Notes under the pieces: generated by a model
What the model was told of the DNA's origin: nothing
Seen by the model: the letters and a program-made list of their open reading frames with translations, nothing else
The model's database searches: none
DNA from: Natronobacterium texcoconense
GTDB taxonomy: Archaea; Halobacteriota; Halobacteria; Halobacteriales; Natrialbaceae
Direction of reading: 5' to 3'
Assembly: GCF_900104065.1 (NCBI RefSeq)
Contig: NZ_FNLC01000003.1
Span: forward strand, 124,001-188,000
DNA length: 64,000 bases
Program-made: the position numbers and the translations under genes
Shown: positions 8,476 to 26,173 of the stretch, piece after piece
How positions within the stretch are numbered: the stretch's first letter is position 1
Layout of the letters: each line of letters starts with the position of its first letter

Positions 8476-10812
8476 ATGAGTTCTGCCGTCGACGAGGACA
8501 CCGTCCAGGCAATCAACTCCGGACGCGAAACCCTCGGTGCGATGCTCTCGAGCGCTCAGACGCATCTTCAGAAGGTATTTATTGTCTTCGTCGTCGGCTT
8601 CATGGGCGCGTTCTGGGCCCTGCGGGTCTACATCTGGGACTTCCTGGAGGAGACCGCTAAAGCCGAGATGAGTCAGTTCGTCGCCGGTTCGACGGACATC
8701 ATTACCCGGACGCCGTTCGAGGTGATCCTGTTACAGGCGAAGATCGGGATGCTGGTCGGGGTCCTCGTCGCGATTCCCGCCTTGCTCTACTTCGCCCGGG
8801 AGAAGCTCAAGGAACGCGGCTACGACAGCGTCGTTCCGATCTCGCGGCTCTACATCGCCGGTTTCGTCGTGAGTTCGTTCGCCCTGTTCTGGGGCGGCGT
8901 CGTCTACGCCTACGGCATCTTCTTCCCGTACGCGTTCGACTTCCTCGCGAGCAACGCCGTCCACACCGGCGTCAAACCCAGTTTCGGGATCACCGAGTTC
9001 ACCGAGTTCATGGCGCTGCTGACGCTATCGTTCGGGCTCGCCGCCCAGCTCCCGCTCTTTATGGGCGTCCTCTCGTACACCGAGATCGTCCCCTACGAGA
9101 CGTTCCGGGACAAGTGGCGCCACGCAATCGTCGGCGTCACCGTCTTCGGTGCCCTGTTCTCCCCGCCGGACCCCTTCACCCTGATCATGTGGGCGATGCC
9201 GATGGTCGTCCTCTACGTCTTCAGTCTCGGTCTCGCGAAGGTCGTCTCGAACACGCGTCGCCGCGGTGCGGCCGAAGCACCCGGCTCCGGGACCGAACAC
9301 ATCAAGCGACTCGTCCTGAAATTCCTCGGGGCGCTGGCGATCGTCGCCACCGCCACCGCCGCCGCCGTCAACCAGGGCGCATTCGACTACCTCCGGGAGC
9401 ACGTCTACCCGGCACTTCCGGATTACCTCCAGCCCTCTGGTGACGACCCCGCCGGTCTCGAGTCGCTCGCCCTCGAGTACGGCCTGCTGGGTGAGGTCGC
9501 AGTCGGCCTGACCGCCGCCGTCCTCGTCGGCTTCCTCGTTCTCCTGGCGTACACGCTGAAAGTACTCCAGGGGCCGATCTACCCGCGCGAAGGCGACATC
9601 CGAAACGCCGACGACCCCGAAGACGTCGACTTCGAGACCCTCGCAGCCGAGGACATCGAGGACGTCCCGGCACAGGTCTTCCTCGCGATGTCCGAAGACG
9701 ACGCCCTCGAGTACTCCCGGAAAGCGATGTACGACGACAACCGGGAGAAAGCCGAGGCGATCCTGAACCGGTTCGACTCGCTCGAGAAGGCAGAAAAGGA
9801 AGCCGCCGAGGGAGACGCGTCGGGTACCGAAAGCACCAGCAAGAGCGCCGTGAGTGCCGCCGACGAAGCGGAAGAGAGTGGCGGTGTCTTCTCGAGTACT
9901 GCCGCCGGCATGCTCGATCCGTTTACCGAGGAGGAGACGACCGAAGACGACATCGGTGGCTACGCCTACGACATCGCGTTCGTCTTCAACAGCCTCACGT
10001 CGAAGATGTTCCGGATCGTCGGCCTCCTGATGGTGGTCATGGGCGGGACTTTCTTCTGGCTCTACCAGGGCGGACTCCGGCAGGTCCTGACGACATTCCT
10101 CGGTCAAGTTCCGGAAGCGATCCTCCAGGAGGTCGCCGTCCGCAACGGCGTCGATCCGAGCGGGATGCCACTGGACGAACTCATCATGCAGATGGACATC
10201 GTCATCGCCCTACATCCCGTCGAGGTGCTGATCTTCAACGTGAAGGTGAGCGTGATCGCCTCGGTCATCGCGGTCCTTCCGCTGATCCTGTACTACGCCT
10301 GGCCCGCACTGAAAGAGCGCGGCATGGTGTACGGCGACCGACGCATCTTCATCGTCTGGGGTGGCTCGCTGCTGGGTGGGTTCGCCGCCGGTACCTACCT
10401 CGGGTTCTTCTGGATCGCACCCGCGGTCATCTCCTATCTGGTCTCGGACGCGATCACCAACCAGATGGTCGTCTCCTACCGGATCAGCAGCTTCTTCTGG
10501 CTGGTGATCTTCACGACCGTCGGCATCGGCTTCCTCTTCAACATCATCGTTACGATGGCGCTGTTCCACGTCGGCGGCATCGTCAGCTACCGGACGATGC
10601 TTCGCGGCTGGCGGCCTGTCGTCGTCGGTATCTTCGCGATCGCTGCGATCGCCAGCCCGAAGGGAATCCTCACGATGTTGCTCTTTGCGATCCCGATCGC
10701 CCTGACCTACGTGCTCGGACTCGGCGTCCTCTACCTGCTGACCGGCGGCGGACGACTGTTCGGCGGCGAAGGTGGCGGACCCGACCTCGAGACTGGACTG
10801 CTCGGTCGATAA
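8476..10812 (+). CDS. tatC2: Double-length twin-arginine translocase TatC2 (TatCt)
   Basis: This 778-residue protein is the tandem TatC characteristic of haloarchaea: two complete TatC domains joined by a long acidic linker. Domain one (about residues 20-260) begins ETLGAMLSSAQTHLQKVF. Domain two (about 495-765) begins FNSLTSKMFRIVGLLMVV. The linker (about 360-490) holds an extra hydrophobic helix pair and a charged stretch with EDALEYSRKAMYDDN. In haloarchaea most secreted proteins use Tat, and both TatC forms are reported as essential in Haloferax. Nearby likely Tat substrates are the lipoprotein at 10879 and the subtilase at 14723. Confidence 0.93.
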   Translation: MSSAVDEDTVQAINSGRETLGAMLSSAQTHLQKVFIVFVVGFMGAFWALRVYIWDFLEETAKAEMSQFVAGSTDIITRTPFEVILLQAKIGMLVGVLVAIPALLYFAREKLKERGYDSVVPISRLYIAGFVVSSFALFWGGVVYAYGIFFPYAFDFLASNAVHTGVKPSFGITEFTEFMALLTLSFGLAAQLPLFMGVLSYTEIVPYETFRDKWRHAIVGVTVFGALFSPPDPFTLIMWAMPMVVLYVFSLGLAKVVSNTRRRGAAEAPGSGTEHIKRLVLKFLGALAIVATATAAAVNQGAFDYLREHVYPALPDYLQPSGDDPAGLESLALEYGLLGEVAVGLTAAVLVGFLVLLAYTLKVLQGPIYPREGDIRNADDPEDVDFETLAAEDIEDVPAQVFLAMSEDDALEYSRKAMYDDNREKAEAILNRFDSLEKAEKEAAEGDASGTESTSKSAVSAADEAEESGGVFSSTAAGMLDPFTEEETTEDDIGGYAYDIAFVFNSLTSKMFRIVGLLMVVMGGTFFWLYQGGLRQVLTTFLGQVPEAILQEVAVRNGVDPSGMPLDELIMQMDIVIALHPVEVLIFNVKVSVIASVIAVLPLILYYAWPALKERGMVYGDRRIFIVWGGSLLGGFAAGTYLGFFWIAPAVISYLVSDAITNQMVVSYRISSFFWLVIFTTVGIGFLFNIIVTMALFHVGGIVSYRTMLRGWRPVVVGIFAIAAIASPKGILTMLLFAIPIALTYVLGLGVLYLLTGGGRLFGGEGGGPDLETGLLGR

Positions 10813-14722: not shown

Positions 14723-16015
14723 ATGCGCCACGATACCACTTCTCGACGGAGCGTGCTGAAGACGATCGGTGCTGCAGGCGTCGGAATCGCCTGCGTCGGA
14801 ACGGTAAGCGGTGCCGACAGGGACCGATATCTGGTGACTGGGGACAACGACCGGAACCGACTCGAGACGTCGGAGTTTACCGTCCATACGGAGTTTTCGG
14901 ACGCGAACGTCTATCTCGTCGAGGGACCGGAAGGGAGCAGCGAGGAGCTTCGATCAATCGACGGCGTACAGGGCGTGACACCGGACCTCTCGTACTCGGT
15001 CGACGTGCCGGATCTCGGCCCGGCCGACGACGAGTCCGGATCCGAGGCCGACCAGTGGGACAACGAACTCGTCGATTCGTTCGCGGCCAACGAGTACGCG
15101 ACCGGCGAGGGAACGCAGGTCGGAATTATCGACACTGGGGTCGCGTACGGCCATCCCGATCTCGGGAACCTGAACACCGATCTCAGCCGTGCGTTCGTCG
15201 ACGGCGAGGAACTGGACGACGCCGACGACGTCCACTACCACGGCACCCACGTCGCCGGCATCGCCGGTGCGACCGGCGAGGAGTACGTCGCCGGCATCGC
15301 ACCCGAAACCGAACTCGTCTCACTTCGCGTGTTCCCCTCGGAAGGACCGCTGCTCGCGAGCGTCAGCGACACCTTCCTCGCACTCGAGTACGCCGCCGAG
15401 AACGGACTCGATGTCGTCAACATGAGCATCGGGAGCCCACCGTACCCGGCCTGGGAAAACGCCGACGCTGCCCGCGACGGGTTCCGCGTCGCCCGCGAAC
15501 AGATGCTGCGAAGCGTCGTCCAGCGCGGGACGACTGTCGTCGTCGCCGCGGGCAACGAGGCGACGAACATCCAGCGAGGCAACGAGTGTCGGACCGTCGA
15601 GAACGAGGACGGCGAAGAAGAGGAGGTCTGTGCGCGTTGGTTCCAGCTATGGGGCAGCCTGCAACACTCGATCAGCGTGAGCGCGACGACCGCCGAAGAC
15701 GAACTGGCATCGTTCTCGAACTACGGCGTCCCGCACGTCGACGTCGGTGCGCCGGGCGCGAACGTCCTGTCGACGCTCGATCCGGACAACGAGGCGCTTC
15801 CCGGCGCGGAGTACGCGAACCTGTCCGGAACCTCGATGGCGTCGCCGCAGGTCGCCGGCCTCACGGCGCTCGTCGCCGAACTCGCTCCGGACCAGCACCC
15901 GAACCAGGACGAGCGGGCGATCAAACACGGTGCCGATCTCGTCGAGGGGGAGAGCGACCCCGAGTTCGGTGCCGGTCGGATCAACGCACTCGAGACGGTC
16001 GAACGGCTCCGATAG
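14723..16015 (+). CDS. Tat-exported subtilisin-like serine protease (halolysin type)
   Basis: This 430-residue S8 protease begins with a Tat signal, TSRRSVLKTIGAAGVGIACV, cleaved near residue 30. A propeptide of about 75 residues follows (FTVHTEFSDANVYLVEG), and then the catalytic domain from about residue 125. The triad is Asp137 (GIIDTGV), His173 (HGTHVAG) and Ser371 (GTSMAS), with oxyanion Asn278 (AAGNEAT). The two cysteines around 289 and 303 may form a disulfide. Unlike the classical halolysins there is no C-terminal extension. TATA-like GATTAATATT lies about 35 bp upstream. It should fold in the cytoplasm and be secreted by the Tat system encoded nearby. Confidence 0.92.
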   Translation: MRHDTTSRRSVLKTIGAAGVGIACVGTVSGADRDRYLVTGDNDRNRLETSEFTVHTEFSDANVYLVEGPEGSSEELRSIDGVQGVTPDLSYSVDVPDLGPADDESGSEADQWDNELVDSFAANEYATGEGTQVGIIDTGVAYGHPDLGNLNTDLSRAFVDGEELDDADDVHYHGTHVAGIAGATGEEYVAGIAPETELVSLRVFPSEGPLLASVSDTFLALEYAAENGLDVVNMSIGSPPYPAWENADAARDGFRVAREQMLRSVVQRGTTVVVAAGNEATNIQRGNECRTVENEDGEEEEVCARWFQLWGSLQHSISVSATTAEDELASFSNYGVPHVDVGAPGANVLSTLDPDNEALPGAEYANLSGTSMASPQVAGLTALVAELAPDQHPNQDERAIKHGADLVEGESDPEFGAGRINALETVERLR

Positions 16016-17015: not shown

Positions 17016-17318
17016 CCCGGTTCTCTTTCCTACCCTATCGAAAACAGGATAGTTGCTGCTCGAGCAGTAGAGGTAGGTTTTAGGTTCATCACGTAGAGCC
17101 GAACGTTTCACCAGTGGTTCGGAGCCCTATTCATAGCCATATCTGCTCCGAACACGTGGTAAATTACTCATTCTCCGTCTGTAATACCTAGTTGACTTTC
17201 GAAATGCATTCTTGTAGATTAGACATACTTTTTTGTTAGATCTTCCTTCAGTACGAAATATTCTAGTTAGAATAATTATAAGTAGGGGGCGCATCTGCCG
17301 ATGGATGGAGTTGCATCA
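17016..17318. other. AT-rich spacer with a 9-bp inverted repeat and the subtilase promoter
   Basis: This 303-bp spacer is clearly richer in A and T than the surrounding coding DNA. It contains the inverted repeat GTTCGGAGC (17117-17125) and GCTCCGAAC (17145-17153), 19 nt apart, flanked by further matching CCA and TGG. A TATA-like AATTATAAG at 17274-17282 precedes the giant subtilase. Transcription from it would begin near 17300-17305, which favours translation from the ATG at 17319 and not from 17301. No gene is seen. Confidence 0.6.
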
Positions 17319-20300
17319 ATGATAGACTCGCGCAGTCTTGTCGCTGTACTCGCGGTGTTCATGGCACTGATGATGGTGACATCACCAGTCGCGATGGCCG
17401 CGGGACCAGCGGTAAGTAATGGGACAGCACAATCCGTCGACGATATCGATATCGATGTCGACGAAATAGAAGCGCAATCAGGCGAGGACGTCGAGGTAGT
17501 GTCCGAGCTTGAAAAACAAGCAGCTGAGGGGGATACTGTTGAAGTATTTGTCAGGTTAGATGCCGCGAAGTCAGAGACCTTCGCGCAAGCAACTGGCAGT
17601 GTCCAACCGACGAGTAACTCCGAGGCTGCACTGAAACAGGAGGCTGAACTCTCACAGTATCATCTGACGGAGTTTGCCGAAACGAGCGAGGGACTCGAAG
17701 TACTCAACGACTTCTGGATTACGAACGCCGTACTTCTAGAGGTCGACACTCAACAGGTCGATGTGGATGACTTGACCCGGTTCGATGGCGTAACCGAACT
17801 TCACCCGAACTACGAGGTGGAACACGTCAACCCGGAGCCTGACTCGCTCGAGGACGAATACGGTGAGAGCACGTACGGCCTCGAACAGGTTAATGCGCCG
17901 AACGTGTGGGAAGACTTCGACACGAAGGGTGGCGGAGCGTCCGTCGCCGTTCTGGACACTGGTCTCGATGCTGATCATCCGGAGTTCGATGACTTCGATG
18001 CCGACGAGAACTGGAAACAGTTCGATGAAGACGGGAACGTAATGGATGTCGCTCCCAACGACCCCAACGGGCACGGAACGCACGTAGCCGGAACGGTCGT
18101 TGGAAGCGATGAATCCGGAACGAACATCGGTGTTGCGCCAGAAGCGGAACTCTACGCAGGAAAGGTGCTCGACAACGGGGGGACGTTAGCTCAAATCGTG
18201 GCCGGCGTCGAATGGGCTGTTGAGGAAGACGTCGACGTTGTCAACATGAGCCTCGGTGGTGGCGGATACGCTGCTGTCTACGCCGAGGTAATCGATAACG
18301 CGATGGACGAAGGGACACTCGTAGTCTCTTCGTCCGGTAACGACGGACCTGGAGCGGAAGGCACACCCGCGAACGTCTACAGCGCACTTGCAGTCGGGGC
18401 AAGTGATGTGAATGAAGACATCGCTGATTTCTCGACCGGGACCGAAATTGACACGGAAGAGGAATGGGGCTACATTGGCACCCAATACGACTGGCCGGAA
18501 GAGTTCACGACGCCCGACGTCGCTGCGCCAGGCGTGGGTATTTACAGTTCGGTTCCCGGTGACGGGTATAGTGACACCTACAGTGGAACCAGTATGGCCG
18601 CGCCGCATGCGAGCGGGGTTGCTGCCCTCCTGTACGCCCAGGGCGCTGACGACGCATGGGACGTGAAAGACTACATGCAGGATTCAGCTGAGAAACCAGA
18701 CGAGCCTGGTTTCCAGGCATCCCACGATGCGAATGTGTACGATCAGGAGTACGACTCCAACCAAACCGCTCTCCTGACCGACGACGAAGAGCGAGACATC
18801 CGGTATGGATACGGGCTCGTCGATGCATACGCCGCTTCGCTCGAAATGAAAGAGTCGGGTACGGTCGAAGGGACCGTTACTGACGCAGATGGAGAACCCG
18901 CCGGGGTCGACGTCTGGGTTGGTGCAGCAGAGGCGGTAACCGACGGAGATGGCGAGTTCTCCATTGAGGTCGAAGCAGGCGTAGAACACGATATCGTCGC
19001 CAGCGAGTTCGGTGAACGCGCCGAAGAGACCGTTGAAGTCGATGACGGAGAAAAGGAAACTGTCGATCTCACGCTCGAGCCGGCGCTGGACGCCGATCTG
19101 ATCGACGACCAGGCCGAAGAGATCGTAAAAGGCGATGAAACCGATATCAGTGTAAACGTTTCCGAGCTTGAAACTCTAACAGTCGAACTCGGGAGTGTCG
19201 CTGAAAACGCTGACGTTGAAGAAGACAATATCGCCGTCGAATACGAGGGTGAAGAGCTATCTCTCGGTGAAGAAACAGATATCACCGAAGGTGGCGAGCC
19301 GATCTCGAATGAGATCGATCTTACGGTCGAAATCGATGCAGCCGTCGGTGCAGCTGTCGATCTCGACCTCACGTTCGACAACGAAGGCGACGACCCGATT
19401 ACGGTAACGACCGGTCCGACGGCAGTTTTGGAAGAGGATGCTGAATCCGAGGACATCCAGGTCACCGAGTTCGATCCGCCGGAGGAAGCCGAATACGGTG
19501 ACACCGACGAAGTAGTTGCGACGTTCGAAAACCCCGGTGACTTCACCGAAACGGAAGAGGTGTATCTGTTCGTTGACGACGAACACGATACACTGCTCCC
19601 GACAGGGGTCGAAATCGATTCAGGTGAAGAAGAGACCGTCCCACTCGGACTGATGGGATGGTGGTCCGACCTGCGTGGGGATGCAGTCCCTGGTGATCTC
19701 GACATGCAGGTGTCGGTCCAAGAACCACCGACACTCCAGGACGAATCGAACGATCCCGTCGACGAAAGTGACGTAGAAACGATTACTGTCAAAGAAACTG
19801 AGGAAGCCGAGGAAGAAAGCATTATTACCGGTCAAGTCACCGACAGCGAAAGCGACGACCCAGTGTCCGGAGCCCAGGTAACGGTTACTGGCCCTGACGA
19901 GGCTGAGACGAGAACCGATATCGACGGTGAGTTCACCGCCTCCATCGCTGGAGAGGGTAATTACACCGTTGCGGTTCATGCGCCACAGTACGGCGTCACG
20001 CAGGAACACATCAGCGTTGATGCAGGTGGGGAAACCGAAGTCGACGTTGCGATCACCCAGAATCCGAACTACCACTTCGCGATGCAGGAGGATAGAGTGT
20101 ACTCGTTCGGGTTCCCCGGTCCAGTCGAAGGTGAGACGCTCGGAGACGTACTGAGTGGCACTAACGAAGAAGAACCGATAGGTACGGTCTGGACGTTCGA
20201 CAACGAGGAGAACGAGTGGAGTACTGGATCGCTTGACACCGAAATCGGTGCCCTCGACGCAGTAGTAGTCGTTCCCGAAGAAGAGATAGTGGGAGAAGTG

Positions 20301-23300
20301 ACGTTCGAAGGTGATCCGACAGCAGGCACACCTGGAAGCCCCGTCAGCAGTGACGTTGACGAGGGTTGGAACTTCGTCGCACCGGCACAGTTCAACGATC
20401 CGGAAGAGGCCTTCACGACGACCAGCGAAGAACTCCAGGTTCAGGAAGCAGGTGACGAGCCACACTCGAACGTGCTTCCAGACGGTGGCTTCGGTGGCGT
20501 TGGCGTCCTCGACGAGGGCGATAACGACCTCAACCCGTTCGCTGGATACTTCCTCGCTGTCGACGATGACGGCGAACAGCTCGGTACCACGACGGACGGT
20601 CTCAACCTCGAAGAGGCAAACGACCGGCTGAACGTCGACGCAGACGACCTCGAGCTGACGGTCGTGAAGGCGGGAAGTGACGGTGAACCGATCGAAGGTG
20701 CAGATGTAACTATCGAAGCGGACGGAACTGGCTGGGACCTCGTGACCGCAGAAGATGGCTCGGTCTCGGTTCCGCAACTTCCGGCTGAAGTCGAACAGGA
20801 CGTCGTAGTCGAAGCGAACGGCTTCGAGACGAAGGAAACCCAACTCACGCCCGGTGACAAGACGCTCGAACTCACAGCCGATGAGACGATGTTCCTCGTC
20901 GATGACCTCGAAGTCGACGGTGACGAAGGAAACATCGGTGACGCGGATCAGAACGAATTCGCTCCGGGTGACGAGATCCAGATCGACTACGAAGTGACCA
21001 ATATCGGTCCGGAAGCGGACGAACTGCAGGTGCAGACCGAAATCGGTCCGAACCCAGGCGAAGCGCGTATGGATTCGGACACTAACGTCGTCCATACGGA
21101 AAGCCTGACAATTGAGAACGGGACAACTGAACGGATCTCGGTGACCGAGGACATCCTCGATTCACAGGTCGCTGGTGATCAGTACGCAGCCGGTCTCTCC
21201 ATGGATATGGCGACGGTCCCCATGGACATAGAGACCGAAGAGATCACCGTCCTTGCTGACGAGGAATACCAGCTCTCGAACCTCAACCCCGAAACTACGA
21301 CGGTCCATCAAGAGGATGATCCGTTCGACGTTTCAGTTGACGTCGAAAACGTCGGCGATATCGCCGAAGAACCACAGAATATCGAACTTGAAATCCTCGA
21401 TTCGAACGAAGAGATCGCATACAATGAGACCGCAGAAGCGGTCGAAGTCGACGCCGGTGAGAGCACCACGGTCGAGTTCGAAGCTATCGATCCATCCGAA
21501 TTCGATGGTGGAGAGTACACGCTCGTCGTGTCCTCTGGAGACGACGAAATCACCGGCGAGCTAACGGTCGAGACGCCGGCGATGTCGGAACTCGATACCC
21601 TCGATATCGCTGACGAAGATGAGAACGCAACGATCGTCGAAGGAGATGACGAAAACATCTCGGTCGCAGTCGAAAACGTTGGTGACGAAGCCGGCGAGTT
21701 CGACGTCGACCTCGAAATCAACGAGAGCGACGTCGAAGAGGAAACCACGACCGGAGAACTCGAGCCCGGTGAGACCGAAACCGTCACGTTCGAGGCAGTC
21801 ACTGGTAATCTCAGTAATGGCTCCTACGACATCGATGTCTCGACGGAAGACGACAGCGTCGAAGGTGACCTTACTGTTCAGGAACTCACTGACGATTTCC
21901 AGGTCGAGATCAACGACACCCACGATCCGATAACCGAAGGTGAGAACCTCGACGTAAACGTCACCGTCGAGAACCTCGGTACTGACGACGGCGAACAGAC
22001 CATCGAACTCGAAGACTTCGGTGGAGAAAACGTCGATGAGGAAAACGTCAGCCTCAGTGCTAGCGATGAAACGGATATCTCCCTAACCTGGGAAACTGAA
22101 GAGGGTGACGCTGGTGTCGACAACATTACTGTCACCAGTGATAATGACTCCGTCAGCACGGAAGTCGAGATCGAACAAGTTGCTACGGGTACTCTCTCCG
22201 AACTCGACATCGCCGAAGAGGGCACTGACGCGATGATCGTCGAAGGCGATAACGAAAACATCTCGGTCGCAGTCGAAAACGTGGGTGACGAAGCCGGCGA
22301 GTTCGACGTCAACCTCGAAATCAACGAGAGCGATGTCGAAGAAGAAACCACGACCGACGAACTCGAGCCCGATGAGAACGAAACCGTCACGTTCGAAGCA
22401 GTCACTGGTAACCTCAGTGATGGCTCCTACGACGTCGACGTCTCGACGGAAGACGACAGCGTCGAAGGTGACCTTACTGTCCAGGAACTCACTGACGACT
22501 TCCAGGTCGAGATCAGCGACACCTCCGACCCGGTAACCGAAGGTGAGAACCTCGACGTAAACGTCACCGTCGAGAACCTCGGTACTGACGACGGCGAACA
22601 GACCATCGAACTCGAAGACTTCGGTGGCGAAAAGGTCGATGAGGAAAACGTCAGCCTCGATACTGGCGACGAAACGAATATTACCCTAACTTGGGAGACC
22701 GAGGAGGGTGACGCTGGTGTCGACGACATTACTGTCACCAGTGATAATGACTCCGTCAGCGCGGGAGTCGAGATCGAACAAGTTGCTACGGGTACTCTCT
22801 CCGACCTCAACATCGCCGAAAAGAGCGATAACGCAACGATCGTCGAGGGAGATGACGAAAACATCTCGGTCGTAGTCGAAAACGTTGGTGACGAAGCCGG
22901 CGAGTTCGACGTCACCCTCGAAATCAACGAGAGTGACATTGAAGAAGAGAGTTCGATCGACGAACTCGAGCCCGATGAGAACGAAACCATCACGTTCGAA
23001 GCAGTCACTGGTAACCTCAGTGATGGCTCCTACGACGTCGACGTCTCGACGGAAGATGACACCGTCGAAGGTTACCTTACTGTCCAGGAACTCACTGACG
23101 ACTTCCAGATCGAGATCAGCGACACCCACGATCCGGTAACCGAAGGTGAGAACCTCGACGTAGATGCCACCGTCGAGAACGTCGGTACTGACGACGGCGA
23201 ACAGACCATCGAACTCGAAGACTTCGGTGGAGAAAACGTCGATGAGGAAACCGTCAGCCTCGATACTGGCGACGAAACGAATATTACCCTAACCTGGGAG

Positions 23301-24686
23301 ACCGAAGAAGGTGACGCTGGTGCCGACGATATTACGGTCACCAGTGATGATGACTCCGTCAGCACGGAAATCGAGATCGAACAAGTTGCTACGGCTGCGC
23401 TCTCCAACCTCGACATCGCCGGAGAGGGCGCTGATGCAACGATCGTTGAGGACGATAACGAAAATGTCTCGGTCGTAGTCGAAAACGTGGGTGACGAAGC
23501 CGGCGAGTTCGATGTAGACCTCGAGATCGGTAACGCTGACGTCGAAGAGGACGCTAAAACTGACGAACTCGAGCCCGGTGAGACAGAAACTGTCACATTC
23601 GAGGCTGTCACTGGGAACCTCAGTAATGGCTCCTACGACGTCGATGTCTCGACGGAAGACGACAGCATCGAAGGCACCCTCATTGTCGAACAGCCAGCAG
23701 TCGAGTCGGTCGAAATTGAACCAGCCGAAGATCAGATCGTCGAAGCTGGTGAAACCGTTGACTTCGACGCTACTGCCTTCGATGAAGATGGAGACGAACT
23801 CGAAACCGACGACAGTGAATTCGACTGGAACAATGCTGACGATAGCGGCGTATTCGACGAAACCGACGCCGGTAACTACGAGGTCACCGCCGAACTCGGT
23901 GGTGTGATCTCTGAAACGACGACGGTCACCGTCGAATCCAATGATATCAGTTCAGTCGAAATCGACCCAGCTGAAAACCAGACAGTCGCTCCTGACGAAG
24001 AACTCGAGTTCGACGCTACCGCTCTCGACGAATTCGATAACGTCGTCGAAGACAACGACACCGAGTTCACCTGGACTAACGCTGACGAGAGTGGTACGTT
24101 CCAGGAGTCTGACAAAGACGACTACACGGTCACCGCCGAACTCGGCGGCGTGACCTCTGAAGTGACGACGGTCACCGTCGAAGAGCCAGCAGTCGAGTCG
24201 GTCGAAATTGAACCAGCCGAAGAACGGACCGTCGAAGCCGGTGAAACCATTGACTTCGACGCCACTGCCTTCGACGAAGATGGAGACGAACTCGAAACTG
24301 ACGACAGCGAATTCGACTGGAACAATGCTGACGAGAGCGGTGTATTCGACGAAACCGACGCCGGTAGCTACGATGTCACCGCCGAATTCGGTGGTGTGAC
24401 CTCTGAGTCGACGACGGTCACTGTCGAAGCCAGTGATGTCGATTCAGTCGAAATCGACCCCGCTAATGACCGGACTGTCGCTCCTGACGAAGAACTCGAG
24501 TTCGGCGCTACCGCCCTCGACGAATTCGATAACGTCGTCGAAGACGACGACAGCGCGTTCACCTGGACCAACGCTGACGAGAGTGGTACGTTCCAGGAAT
24601 CTGATGAAGGTGACTACGCGGTCAGTGCCGAACTCGGTGGTGTGGCCTCTGAGTCAACGACGGTCACCGTCGACTCTGGTGAATAA
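17319..24686 (+). CDS. Giant secreted subtilase with CARDB-like and Big-like repeats
   Basis: This 2455-residue protein opens with a Sec signal, MIDSRSLVAVLAVFMALMMV, cleaved near residue 31. A propeptide (about 60-170) precedes the S8 domain with Asp213 (AVLDTGL), His252 (GHGTHVAG) and Ser425 (SGTSMAAPH). Three carboxypeptidase-regulatory-like beta domains follow, near residues 511-590, 835-900 and 1110-1190. Next come CARDB-like domains arranged in 201-residue repeats (about 1420-2125), and then four Big-like Ig domains as two 164-residue units up to the end. No transmembrane anchor, dockerin or PGF-CTERM is present. A Shine-Dalgarno-preceded PGF-CTERM gene follows, so surface retention may depend on that partner. 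Substrates unknown. Confidence 0.9.
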   Translation: MIDSRSLVAVLAVFMALMMVTSPVAMAAGPAVSNGTAQSVDDIDIDVDEIEAQSGEDVEVVSELEKQAAEGDTVEVFVRLDAAKSETFAQATGSVQPTSNSEAALKQEAELSQYHLTEFAETSEGLEVLNDFWITNAVLLEVDTQQVDVDDLTRFDGVTELHPNYEVEHVNPEPDSLEDEYGESTYGLEQVNAPNVWEDFDTKGGGASVAVLDTGLDADHPEFDDFDADENWKQFDEDGNVMDVAPNDPNGHGTHVAGTVVGSDESGTNIGVAPEAELYAGKVLDNGGTLAQIVAGVEWAVEEDVDVVNMSLGGGGYAAVYAEVIDNAMDEGTLVVSSSGNDGPGAEGTPANVYSALAVGASDVNEDIADFSTGTEIDTEEEWGYIGTQYDWPEEFTTPDVAAPGVGIYSSVPGDGYSDTYSGTSMAAPHASGVAALLYAQGADDAWDVKDYMQDSAEKPDEPGFQASHDANVYDQEYDSNQTALLTDDEERDIRYGYGLVDAYAASLEMKESGTVEGTVTDADGEPAGVDVWVGAAEAVTDGDGEFSIEVEAGVEHDIVASEFGERAEETVEVDDGEKETVDLTLEPALDADLIDDQAEEIVKGDETDISVNVSELETLTVELGSVAENADVEEDNIAVEYEGEELSLGEETDITEGGEPISNEIDLTVEIDAAVGAAVDLDLTFDNEGDDPITVTTGPTAVLEEDAESEDIQVTEFDPPEEAEYGDTDEVVATFENPGDFTETEEVYLFVDDEHDTLLPTGVEIDSGEEETVPLGLMGWWSDLRGDAVPGDLDMQVSVQEPPTLQDESNDPVDESDVETITVKETEEAEEESIITGQVTDSESDDPVSGAQVTVTGPDEAETRTDIDGEFTASIAGEGNYTVAVHAPQYGVTQEHISVDAGGETEVDVAITQNPNYHFAMQEDRVYSFGFPGPVEGETLGDVLSGTNEEEPIGTVWTFDNEENEWSTGSLDTEIGALDAVVVVPEEEIVGEVTFEGDPTAGTPGSPVSSDVDEGWNFVAPAQFNDPEEAFTTTSEELQVQEAGDEPHSNVLPDGGFGGVGVLDEGDNDLNPFAGYFLAVDDDGEQLGTTTDGLNLEEANDRLNVDADDLELTVVKAGSDGEPIEGADVTIEADGTGWDLVTAEDGSVSVPQLPAEVEQDVVVEANGFETKETQLTPGDKTLELTADETMFLVDDLEVDGDEGNIGDADQNEFAPGDEIQIDYEVTNIGPEADELQVQTEIGPNPGEARMDSDTNVVHTESLTIENGTTERISVTEDILDSQVAGDQYAAGLSMDMATVPMDIETEEITVLADEEYQLSNLNPETTTVHQEDDPFDVSVDVENVGDIAEEPQNIELEILDSNEEIAYNETAEAVEVDAGESTTVEFEAIDPSEFDGGEYTLVVSSGDDEITGELTVETPAMSELDTLDIADEDENATIVEGDDENISVAVENVGDEAGEFDVDLEINESDVEEETTTGELEPGETETVTFEAVTGNLSNGSYDIDVSTEDDSVEGDLTVQELTDDFQVEINDTHDPITEGENLDVNVTVENLGTDDGEQTIELEDFGGENVDEENVSLSASDETDISLTWETEEGDAGVDNITVTSDNDSVSTEVEIEQVATGTLSELDIAEEGTDAMIVEGDNENISVAVENVGDEAGEFDVNLEINESDVEEETTTDELEPDENETVTFEAVTGNLSDGSYDVDVSTEDDSVEGDLTVQELTDDFQVEISDTSDPVTEGENLDVNVTVENLGTDDGEQTIELEDFGGEKVDEENVSLDTGDETNITLTWETEEGDAGVDDITVTSDNDSVSAGVEIEQVATGTLSDLNIAEKSDNATIVEGDDENISVVVENVGDEAGEFDVTLEINESDIEEESSIDELEPDENETITFEAVTGNLSDGSYDVDVSTEDDTVEGYLTVQELTDDFQIEISDTHDPVTEGENLDVDATVENVGTDDGEQTIELEDFGGENVDEETVSLDTGDETNITLTWETEEGDAGADDITVTSDDDSVSTEIEIEQVATAALSNLDIAGEGADATIVEDDNENVSVVVENVGDEAGEFDVDLEIGNADVEEDAKTDELEPGETETVTFEAVTGNLSNGSYDVDVSTEDDSIEGTLIVEQPAVESVEIEPAEDQIVEAGETVDFDATAFDEDGDELETDDSEFDWNNADDSGVFDETDAGNYEVTAELGGVISETTTVTVESNDISSVEIDPAENQTVAPDEELEFDATALDEFDNVVEDNDTEFTWTNADESGTFQESDKDDYTVTAELGGVTSEVTTVTVEEPAVESVEIEPAEERTVEAGETIDFDATAFDEDGDELETDDSEFDWNNADESGVFDETDAGSYDVTAEFGGVTSESTTVTVEASDVDSVEIDPANDRTVAPDEELEFGATALDEFDNVVEDDDSAFTWTNADESGTFQESDEGDYAVSAELGGVASESTTVTVDSGE
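21585..23690 (+). repeat. 603-bp tandem repeat, three full copies plus half
   Basis: The string GATCGT in the motif encoding ATIVEGD begins at 21632, 22235, 22838 and 23441, exactly 603 bp apart each time. Each unit encodes 201 residues, two CARDB-like beta domains (one starting about VENVGDEAGEF, the other about VENLGTDDGEQ). The fourth copy covers only the first half. DNA identity is very high along the units, including synonymous positions, which suggests homogenisation by recombination or recent expansion. Confidence 0.9.
23697..24683 (+). repeat. 492-bp tandem repeat, two copies (Big-like Ig domains)
   Basis: TCGAGTCGGTCGAAATTGAA occurs at 23701 and again at 24193, a 492-bp period (164 residues). 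Each unit has two related 82-residue Ig-like domains, A (VESVEIEPAE) and B (VEIDPA then TVAPDEELEF), giving the order A-B-A-B. The units end the protein directly before its stop codon. Confidence 0.85.
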
Positions 24687-24742
24687 TTACTGAATAAATA
24701 ATCTCCCAATATTATCTTACAACCAATGAAGCAGAATACAAC

Positions 24743-24748
24743 GGAGGT
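24743..24748 (+). promoter_or_regulatory. Strong Shine-Dalgarno site before the PGF-CTERM gene
   Basis: GGAGGT lies 9 nt upstream of the ATG at 24758. Most haloarchaeal first genes are leaderless, so a good SD site 60 bp after the giant subtilase stop suggests that this gene is translated from a shared mRNA. Confidence 0.65.
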
Positions 24749-24757
24749 AACTGCGAG

Positions 24758-26173
24758 ATGACCGGGGCACGTAGTCGCCTCGTTGCGCTCGCGCTCGCAG
24801 CGGTCATGCTGCTGTCGGCCGTCGCACTCGGTGTCGGGGCGGCTCCCGTCCTCGCGGACGACGATCCACCCGAGATCCCGGCAGGCTACTACGGCGACGT
24901 CGAAATCGACGGCGAGCCAGCACCCGAAGGAACAGTTATCGCAGCCGAAATCGACGGTGAGAAACGCGGGCTGATCACAGTCGAAAACGAAGGTGAATTC
25001 GGTGGCCCGTCGGTTGACGACGAGAAACTTGAGGTCCGCGGTAGTTCGACCGATACCGGGAAGGACGTCACCTTCCTCGTCAACGGGGAGGAAGTCGACG
25101 CCGAACCCGACGTCGAATGGGAGTCCGGTGACATCGAAGAAGTCTCCCTCGAGGGCGAAGACGTCGGCGATCCGCCGTACTTCGCCGTCGACATCATCGA
25201 CGAATCGACGACGACGGTCGACGTCGGTGACGAGGCAACCGTCGTTGCCGACATCGAAAACACCGGCGACGTCTCGGGTCAGTCAGATATCGAGTTCGCG
25301 GTCGACGGTACCCTCGAAGAGAAGATCGAAGACCTCGAACTCGACGTCGGTGAAAGCAAAGCGCTCGAGTTCGACTACGAACTCGACGAAGAAGGCGAAG
25401 TCGACGCGACGGTCAGTACCGTCAACGACGAGGATACGGTGACGCTAGTTGCCGAAGACGACGATGATCCATCACCAGGCCCGTCGCCGTCACCAGGCCC
25501 GTCTCCGGACCCGGACCCAGACCCTGACCCCGACCCAATCGAGTTCGAAGTCACCGACGGCGAACTCGAGGTCAGCGTGATCGGTGTCGGCGAAACGGTG
25601 ACCGTTACGGCCACGATCGAGCATATCGGTAGCGAGACTGGCGAAGCGTCCGTCAAGTTCGTCGTCGACGGAGACGTCGTCGACGAGAAGACGGTCGGTC
25701 TCGATCCCGACGAAGCCACCGACGTGACGTTCACAGAGGCGTTCGACGAACCGGGAGACTACGACGTTGCGGTCGGCGAATTCGACGTCGGAACGGTCGA
25801 AGTGACCGAACCCGAACCCGCCGCGTTCGACGTCTTCGACGTCGAGGTGTCCGACGATAAGATCGAGGCCGGCGACGAGATCGACGTCTCCGCCACGGTC
25901 GAGAACATCGGCGATGAAACCGGCACGTTTACTGCCGAGTTGCTCGTCGACGGCGAGGTCGTCGACGGACAGGATGTCACCGCCGACGGCGGCGATGCCG
26001 CGACCGTGACGTTCACAGAGGCGTTCGACGAACCGGGAGACTACGACGTTACCGTCAGCGATGCCGACGGCGTGACGATCACCGTCACGGAAGACGACGG
26101 CATCCCCGGCTTCGGCGCCACGGCAGCAGTCATCACGCTACTGGCGGTCGCGCTTCTCGCGCGTCGCCTGTAA
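24758..26173 (+). CDS. PGF-CTERM surface protein with CARDB-like domains
   Basis: This 471-residue secreted protein has a Sec signal (MTGARSRLVALALAAVMLLS, cleaved near residue 33) and an N-terminal domain starting PAGYYGDVEIDGEPAPEG. Three CARDB-like domains follow (about 150-230, 260-350 and 360-440), the first separated from the others by a proline-rich linker of PSPGPSP and DPDPDP type. It ends with the PGF-CTERM signal DDGIPGFGATAAV, a hydrophobic helix and ARRL. An archaeosortase would process this tail and attach the protein to a membrane lipid. It probably acts with the upstream giant subtilase, whose repeats are of the same domain type. Confidence 0.85.
   Translation: MTGARSRLVALALAAVMLLSAVALGVGAAPVLADDDPPEIPAGYYGDVEIDGEPAPEGTVIAAEIDGEKRGLITVENEGEFGGPSVDDEKLEVRGSSTDTGKDVTFLVNGEEVDAEPDVEWESGDIEEVSLEGEDVGDPPYFAVDIIDESTTTVDVGDEATVVADIENTGDVSGQSDIEFAVDGTLEEKIEDLELDVGESKALEFDYELDEEGEVDATVSTVNDEDTVTLVAEDDDDPSPGPSPSPGPSPDPDPDPDPDPIEFEVTDGELEVSVIGVGETVTVTATIEHIGSETGEASVKFVVDGDVVDEKTVGLDPDEATDVTFTEAFDEPGDYDVAVGEFDVGTVEVTEPEPAAFDVFDVEVSDDKIEAGDEIDVSATVENIGDETGTFTAELLVDGEVVDGQDVTADGGDAATVTFTEAFDEPGDYDVTVSDADGVTITVTEDDGIPGFGATAAVITLLAVALLARRL

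Follow-up and report, generated by a model that had tools for sequence, protein, structure and literature searches.

A large anchorless subtilase and its anchored neighbour

The window analysed here, a stretch of 64,000 nucleotides from the 4.0 Mb genome of the haloarchaeon Natronobacterium texcoconense, contains two adjacent genes on its forward strand, 17319-24686 and 24758-26173, which encode a large secreted S8 protease and a smaller protein with a PGF-CTERM sorting signal. An original prediction, made from the sequence of the window, proposed that the protease leaves the cell in free form and is afterwards retained at the surface by this dedicated neighbour.

The first gene encodes a subtilase of 2455 residues (2461 if an alternative in-frame ATG at 17301 is used) with a Sec-type signal peptide. 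Its Peptidase_S8 catalytic domain lies at 17928-18728 (residues 204-470; expectation value (E) 3.9e-48), and the Asp, His and Ser motifs DTG, HGTH and GTSMA are all found. Beyond this domain the protein has three CarboxypepD_reg and seven CARDB stretches. A C-terminal stalk from approximately 21000 to 24676 combines CARDB repeats with tandem immunoglobulin (Ig)-like repeats, the latter having a period of 246/492 bp at 23685-24673. As predicted, no C-terminal anchor was found in the subtilase, which ends in ...TTVTVDSGE without a hydrophobic tail.

The second gene follows on the same strand after a gap of 71 nucleotides and encodes a protein of 471 residues with a signal peptide and three CARDB domains (E 2.9e-21). 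Its C-terminus carries the PGF-CTERM signal (26102-26167), composed of IPGFG, a transmembrane segment and a basic tail, and scores above both curated cut-offs (TIGR04126, 31.8 bits with a cut-off of 24.5; PF18204, 22.6 with a cut-off of 18.8). The adjacent downstream gene thus encodes a PGF-CTERM protein, as had been proposed.

Two conserved modules, A and B

When the partner was used as query over 61 genomes, mainly CARDB cross-matches were obtained. However, its full-length relatives have a common N-terminal domain of ~97 residues (P-A-A-Y-Y-G-x-V-x-I-D-G-x-P-A-P-x-G-T...), which we named module B and which lies at 24863-25153 in the window. In seven of the nine partner neighbourhoods inspected, a large S8 protease is encoded immediately upstream on the same strand, and every such protease has a region of ~186 residues, module A, in which two pseudo-repeats can be recognised, as well as the motifs GWNFVAP and PFxGYFVF. 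The subtilase of the window carries module A at 20067-20636 on the forward strand (G000:C3:144067-144636), with GWNFVAP and PFAGYF. In what follows, G-numbers denote compared genomes and L-numbers compared loci.

CARDB is present in both proteins of the window, in agreement with the original prediction, which had overlooked the N-terminal B domain and had regarded the CARDB-like domains as the common feature. The conserved element of the pair is modules A and B, not CARDB. In several orthologous partners (L036, L037 and L039) CARDB is absent by eye and a low-complexity stalk is found instead, and a scan of a methanogen B partner gave no CARDB match. The idea that the two proteins associate via their shared CARDB-like domains is therefore rejected; we regard it as very improbable, since A and B persist where CARDB does not.

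Searches with module A against Pfam, NCBIfam and PDB sequences gave no significant match, and those with module B nothing above cut-off, NF058592 and NF033510 touching B at E about 1e-3. An assignment of A or B to a known family was therefore rejected. We also looked for a hidden dockerin/cohesin pair. No dockerin (PF00404) was found in 17319-24686, while the same scan detected one in the S8 protein at 34396-37797 (E 1.1e-8). Neither 24758-26173 nor the B alignment gave a cohesin (PF00963) match, although remote cohesins can escape Pfam: at 37887-38684 the window encodes a cohesin-like protein that likewise scored no cohesin. With no Pfam match, this candidate was rejected as well. A search for a description of A or B in the literature, with subscription papers mostly outside its reach, found none.

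To compare folds, module A of the window was modelled alone with AlphaFold2 (AF2), which gave a predicted local distance difference test (pLDDT) score of 78. For this model, of which only residues 1-86 were well tested, the best Foldseek E was 0.078 and the best VIA Z 4.7, to cupin-like half barrels. Because no Foldseek match fell below E 0.07 and the best Z was only 4.7, we make no claim of a new fold. Module B gave a best VIA-align Z of 7.6 over 80 residues, and many transthyretin (TTR)- or CNA_B-type structures scored Z 6-7.6, all below 8. Among its structural neighbours were SlaB (8qox), usher C-terminal domains and the CPD TTR domain. These matches are suggestive of a transthyretin/CNA_B-type (prealbumin-like) sandwich, where a Z below 8 may mean merely a common arrangement. 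The predicted fold class is shared with CarboxypepD_reg-like domains, and no Pfam family covers B.

The partner gene is preceded by a strong Shine-Dalgarno sequence, GGAGGT at 24743-24748, 9 nucleotides before the ATG at 24758. The motif had been singled out as unusually strong, and it is real here and in near relatives. Yet it precedes just 6 of 39 B genes, compared to 58 of 532 among all called genes, a lower bound because some called starts are late. As a feature of the system it was rejected.

Linkage of A and B in haloarchaea

The census of A and B was drawn from retrieved genome stretches, and genes of the relatives were called with a simple codon model, so that some start codons may be misplaced. 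Across the family (121 genomes), an A gene was found upstream (within 6 kb, same strand) of 26 of the 28 strong B matches, where 0.03 were expected. The gene-neighbourhood survey suggested with the original prediction thus bears out the co-occurrence of the pair. The two exceptions are a B gene (G106:2059997, L065) that lies behind an apparent remnant of such a protease, and a B-like domain (G028, L052) that forms part of an S8 protein whose tail is dockerin-like. Conversely, B was found downstream of 26 of the 39 A matches. The counts here and in methanogens (see below) refute the idea that two abundant kinds of surface-protein gene lie side by side by chance, even though CARDB and PGF-CTERM proteins are many in haloarchaea.

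Among the A proteins adjoining a B gene, 12 are not S8 proteases; those scanned are right-handed beta-helix/NosD-like, with A usually at the extreme C-terminus. In ten genomes, B was the next gene for none of the 24 S8 proteins above 600 residues that lack A. Some of these 24 are self-anchored by PGF-CTERM, some have a dockerin beside a cohesin-like gene and some are without a visible partner. Anchoring by a neighbour is thus not universal for S8 proteases, and B tracks A, not the S8 protease.

The gap between A and B genes has a median of about 60 nucleotides, and 13 of 38 gaps, overlaps included, are of at most 30 nucleotides. This suggests co-expression in general; for the pair in the window it is not a proof. 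Over 292 genomes of the class, 36 have both modules, 13 only A, 21 only B and 222 neither (Fisher p 1e-20, which overstates the evidence because the genomes are related). In four genomes of one genus (G040, G165, G263 and G282), strong genes for S8 proteases with A and strong B genes are at least 100 kb apart or on separate contigs. Therefore, adjacency alone does not explain the co-occurrence.

Two variant arrangements were observed. At L052 (560-4252) and L054 (3842-6721), S8 proteases with an internal B-like domain and a C-terminal dockerin-like tail are followed by a PGF-CTERM or transmembrane-anchored protein. The loci L038 and L056-L059 hold a divergent A'/B' subfamily, in which the upstream protein ends ...DTYWVYVDDPERTDRG... 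and is missed by the A profile, and the B of the partner is weaker (50-69 bits).

Modules A and B beyond haloarchaea

The A profile detected the A core in many further genomes of the phylum. In 22 methanogen-type genomes, B was found within 400 nucleotides downstream of 39 of the 65 A matches, compared to 0.02 expected. In these genomes, large secreted proteins end with A as their final domain, and an anchored protein, which usually has about 350-400 residues, begins with B. The spacing between A and B is mostly 77-120 nucleotides, which leaves room only for a stop codon and a signal peptide.

A scan of a large genome collection for B only, performed with a set of five B rows, gave 31 loci, and at 24 of these A was directly upstream or in the same cluster. 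The loci include Halovivax, Natronosalvus, Natronorubrum, Halopiger, Haloarcula, Natrinema, Halobacterium and Halorubrum, as well as Methanolobus, Methanophagales and ANME-2 (anaerobic methanotrophic archaea) records. Species with a pair are Haloarcula argentinensis (L147) and Natrinema salsiterrestre (L150). Related arrangements occur in Chloroflexota metagenome-assembled genomes (MAGs) labelled Anaerolineae and Caldilineales (L161 and L165). Two MAG contigs with haloarchaeal-type A/B genes, labelled Mollicutes (L143) and Bacteroidales (L157), are probably misbinned.

Several loci combine the modules in other ways. A Methanosarcinales MAG (L154) encodes a natural A-B-dockerin fusion, in which the dockerin and N-terminal propeller-like repeats were read by eye. 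At L121, two consecutive proteins have the order propeller-B-B-B-PKD-A, and at L123 one protein has B-B and a terminal A-like region. At least two A genes per single B gene are found in the clusters L078, L126, L128 and L129. B partners elsewhere end in PGF-CTERM or plain transmembrane anchors, and in the B proteins of L137 and L156 a dockerin-like tail replaces the anchor. In addition, B proteins of this type accompany beta-helix, PKD and propeller proteins without any protease. By analogy, this repertoire of fusions and scaffold-like proteins resembles that of cohesin-dockerin systems. At L122 (6209-12753), a papain-type C1 protease with four B modules lies beside a DUF3821 protein that has B at its N-terminus and A at its C-terminus.

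Predicted contact between A and B

A direct binding of A to B is predicted by structure modelling. As AF2 input we used one natural pair (L071), whose genes share one reading frame, interrupted by a single stop codon, so that A and B could be modelled as one chain; no read-through is implied. With an alignment of 12 paired rows and 46 single-module rows, the chain was predicted with a pLDDT of 88.7 and a predicted template modelling score (pTM) of 0.86, and only the linker was disordered. By calculation, a freely floating B would give a pTM of about 0.61. The difference indicates that B is placed relative to A within roughly 1.5-2 Å of expected error, and the model thus confidently packs A against B.

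In a mirror-tree comparison of 25 S8 pairs, the partial correlation between A and B given S8 was 0.36 (p 0.0003), whereas that between S8 and B given A was 0.10 (p 0.05). This co-variation, a modest statistic, fits A as the contacting module.

A dockerin/cohesin pair in the same window

The original prediction regarded the pair at 17319-26173 as the second of two with the same logic. The other pair is molecularly different. The forward-strand gene 34396-37797 encodes an anchorless S8 protease with a C-terminal Dockerin_1 domain (PF00404; 37618-37773), and 37887-38684, on the same strand, a cohesin-like protein with a PGF-CTERM-like end. A Pfam scan did not recognise the main domain of the latter as a cohesin. 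Its cohesin-like nature follows from comparison: the domain is 35% identical to a protein at L112, which matches PF00963 with E 5.6e-5, narrowly missing the curated cut-off, and a five-sequence profile of the domain touches a cohesin scaffoldin structure (E 0.006). With its dockerin match and cohesin-like partner, this pair belongs to a known kind. Surface attachment through dockerin and cohesin has been described in archaea (PMC9012536). At L105 (1600-12141), three successive dockerin-bearing S8 proteases are followed by one cohesin-like PGF-CTERM protein, that is, several cargos and one anchor.

In the window, the dockerin/cohesin pair sits between a trm5-like gene and a helicase gene; in G019 that position is occupied by an S8 protease with A and its B partner (L039). 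The swap at one site indicates that both couplings occupy the same genomic niche.

Two further genes of the window were recorded. A third, small S8 protease (14723-16015), halolysin-like and with a Tat-like (RR) N-terminus, is encoded just upstream of PCNA. The gene at 8476-10812 encodes a TatC protein of 778 residues in which two stretches match TatC, so that TatC appears to be duplicated in it.

Discussion

We propose that 17319-26173 is one instance of a two-component docking system, in which module A of the cargo binds module B of the anchor and the protease is held at the surface; we put the probability of this reading at roughly 0.7. The large protein, without an anchor but bearing module A, would be exported via Sec. 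The small neighbour would be exported separately, presumably processed by an archaeosortase at the PGF-CTERM signal and anchored to lipid, and would present its N-terminal B at the end of a stalk, formed by CARDB repeats here and by a low-complexity linker in others. A would then dock onto B and so retain the protease on the cell. Further A proteins (beta-helix, PKD or propeller) would be tethered likewise, and proteins with several B modules and a terminal A would serve as scaffolds. Physical binding of A and B, surface retention, lipid anchoring, co-expression in the window genome and the protease substrate are all what we infer from the comparisons above. The proposal of a free protease held by a dedicated anchored neighbour is partly supported: the arrangement is conserved in the family and far beyond, with couplings that differ between the two pairs of the window. 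As a general strategy, tethering is supported, but it is not specific to proteases.

Several observations weigh against the docking system. S8 proteases with A lack an adjacent B at four loci of one genus (L041, L042, L043 and L080), and in two genomes of this genus, G012 and G119, B was sought and not found. At these four loci the protease lies at the PCNA locus, and the sister genomes (L077 and L079) retain B; its absence may reflect a recent loss by which the protease is set free. S8 proteins with a weaker A and no adjacent B occur at L047-L051 and L099. Within the genus of the window, most genomes have neither module (G001-G003), and in G004 the S8 protease with A appears broken (L044, by a frameshift or a masked stretch) and no B follows it. 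B-like domains are also found in self-anchored S8 proteins without A (L053 and L055). Module A of the window sits 1350 residues from the C-terminus of the protease, whereas A is C-terminal in methanogens. The linker of the L071 model was artificial, consisting of the locus's own intergenic reading and signal peptide, and the modelling covered a single cognate pair judged by pTM and pLDDT.

Finally, the co-conservation of A and B could reflect a shared role without contact. A and B would then be co-inherited parts of one surface structure, each binding the S-layer, a glycan or a third protein, and paired at the level of the operon. This is the best surviving alternative, and the B relatives fused into S8 proteins without A, together with the S8 proteases with A that lack any B, would fit it. 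We nevertheless consider it unlikely in view of the confident predicted packing of A against B, the natural A-B fusion, the co-occurrence of the modules even when unlinked and an A-B correlation that persists when the cis-linked S8 domain is allowed for. Less likely still, the downstream protein could serve the protease chiefly as chaperone, activator or inhibitor instead of as a tether, as a neighbouring gene whose product has a protein-binding domain would equally fit a regulator. However, the same type of B protein stands beside proteins without a protease, module A lies outside the catalytic domain and the partners bear PGF-CTERM or transmembrane anchors.

The proposed docking system is comparable to the cellulosomal and non-cellulosomal cohesin-dockerin systems (PF00963/PF00404), in which complementary modules likewise lie on separate secreted polypeptides, a cargo and an anchored partner, encoded by adjacent genes. 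The scaffold-like A/B proteins also have several receptor modules and a terminal cargo-type module. At one locus either system can take the place of the other, and fusions between the two occur here and there. In contrast to dockerin, A comprises ~186 residues without an evident calcium-loop motif, neither protein of the pair matches dockerin or cohesin, B is suggested to be transthyretin-like (Z 7.6) and the binding is a predicted one. The partner shares the tripartite signal of PGF-CTERM substrates of ArtA (TIGR04126, PF18204), whose anchoring has been described (PMC9263693). That signal anchors its bearer, whereas the B partner would in addition retain a second protein by non-covalent contact; other B partners have plain transmembrane tails or a dockerin instead.

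The protease itself is exported and has an S8 catalytic domain like the secreted haloarchaeal subtilases of the halolysin/Nep type. Halolysins are small and released; the protease of the window has a Sec instead of a Tat signal, 2455 residues, module A and a long Ig-like stalk.

We rate as new the proposed docking by A and B, domains unrelated to cohesin and dockerin; modular docking of secreted proteins as such is already known. It seems somewhat more probable to us than the contrary that A/B represents a second, independently evolved code of the cohesin-dockerin kind, spread among haloarchaea, methanogens, ANME and certain Chloroflexota. Such a code would have its own dedicated anchors and scaffolds with several B modules and would be interchangeable with true cohesin-dockerin, and part of the apparently free secretome of these archaea would be displayed at the surface. 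The replacement of one coupling by the other at a single locus suggests selection for display itself, not for one chemistry.

If the docking system is correct, two so far unassigned domains would obtain testable boundaries, and the anchors of many secreted archaeal proteins would become predictable from sequence. A salt-tolerant docking pair might also be of use in enzyme display. The widespread A/B pair appears to be an archaeal means of holding secreted proteins on the cell surface; it would provide a display route for large anchorless proteins, and proteins now annotated as released may be held at the surface.

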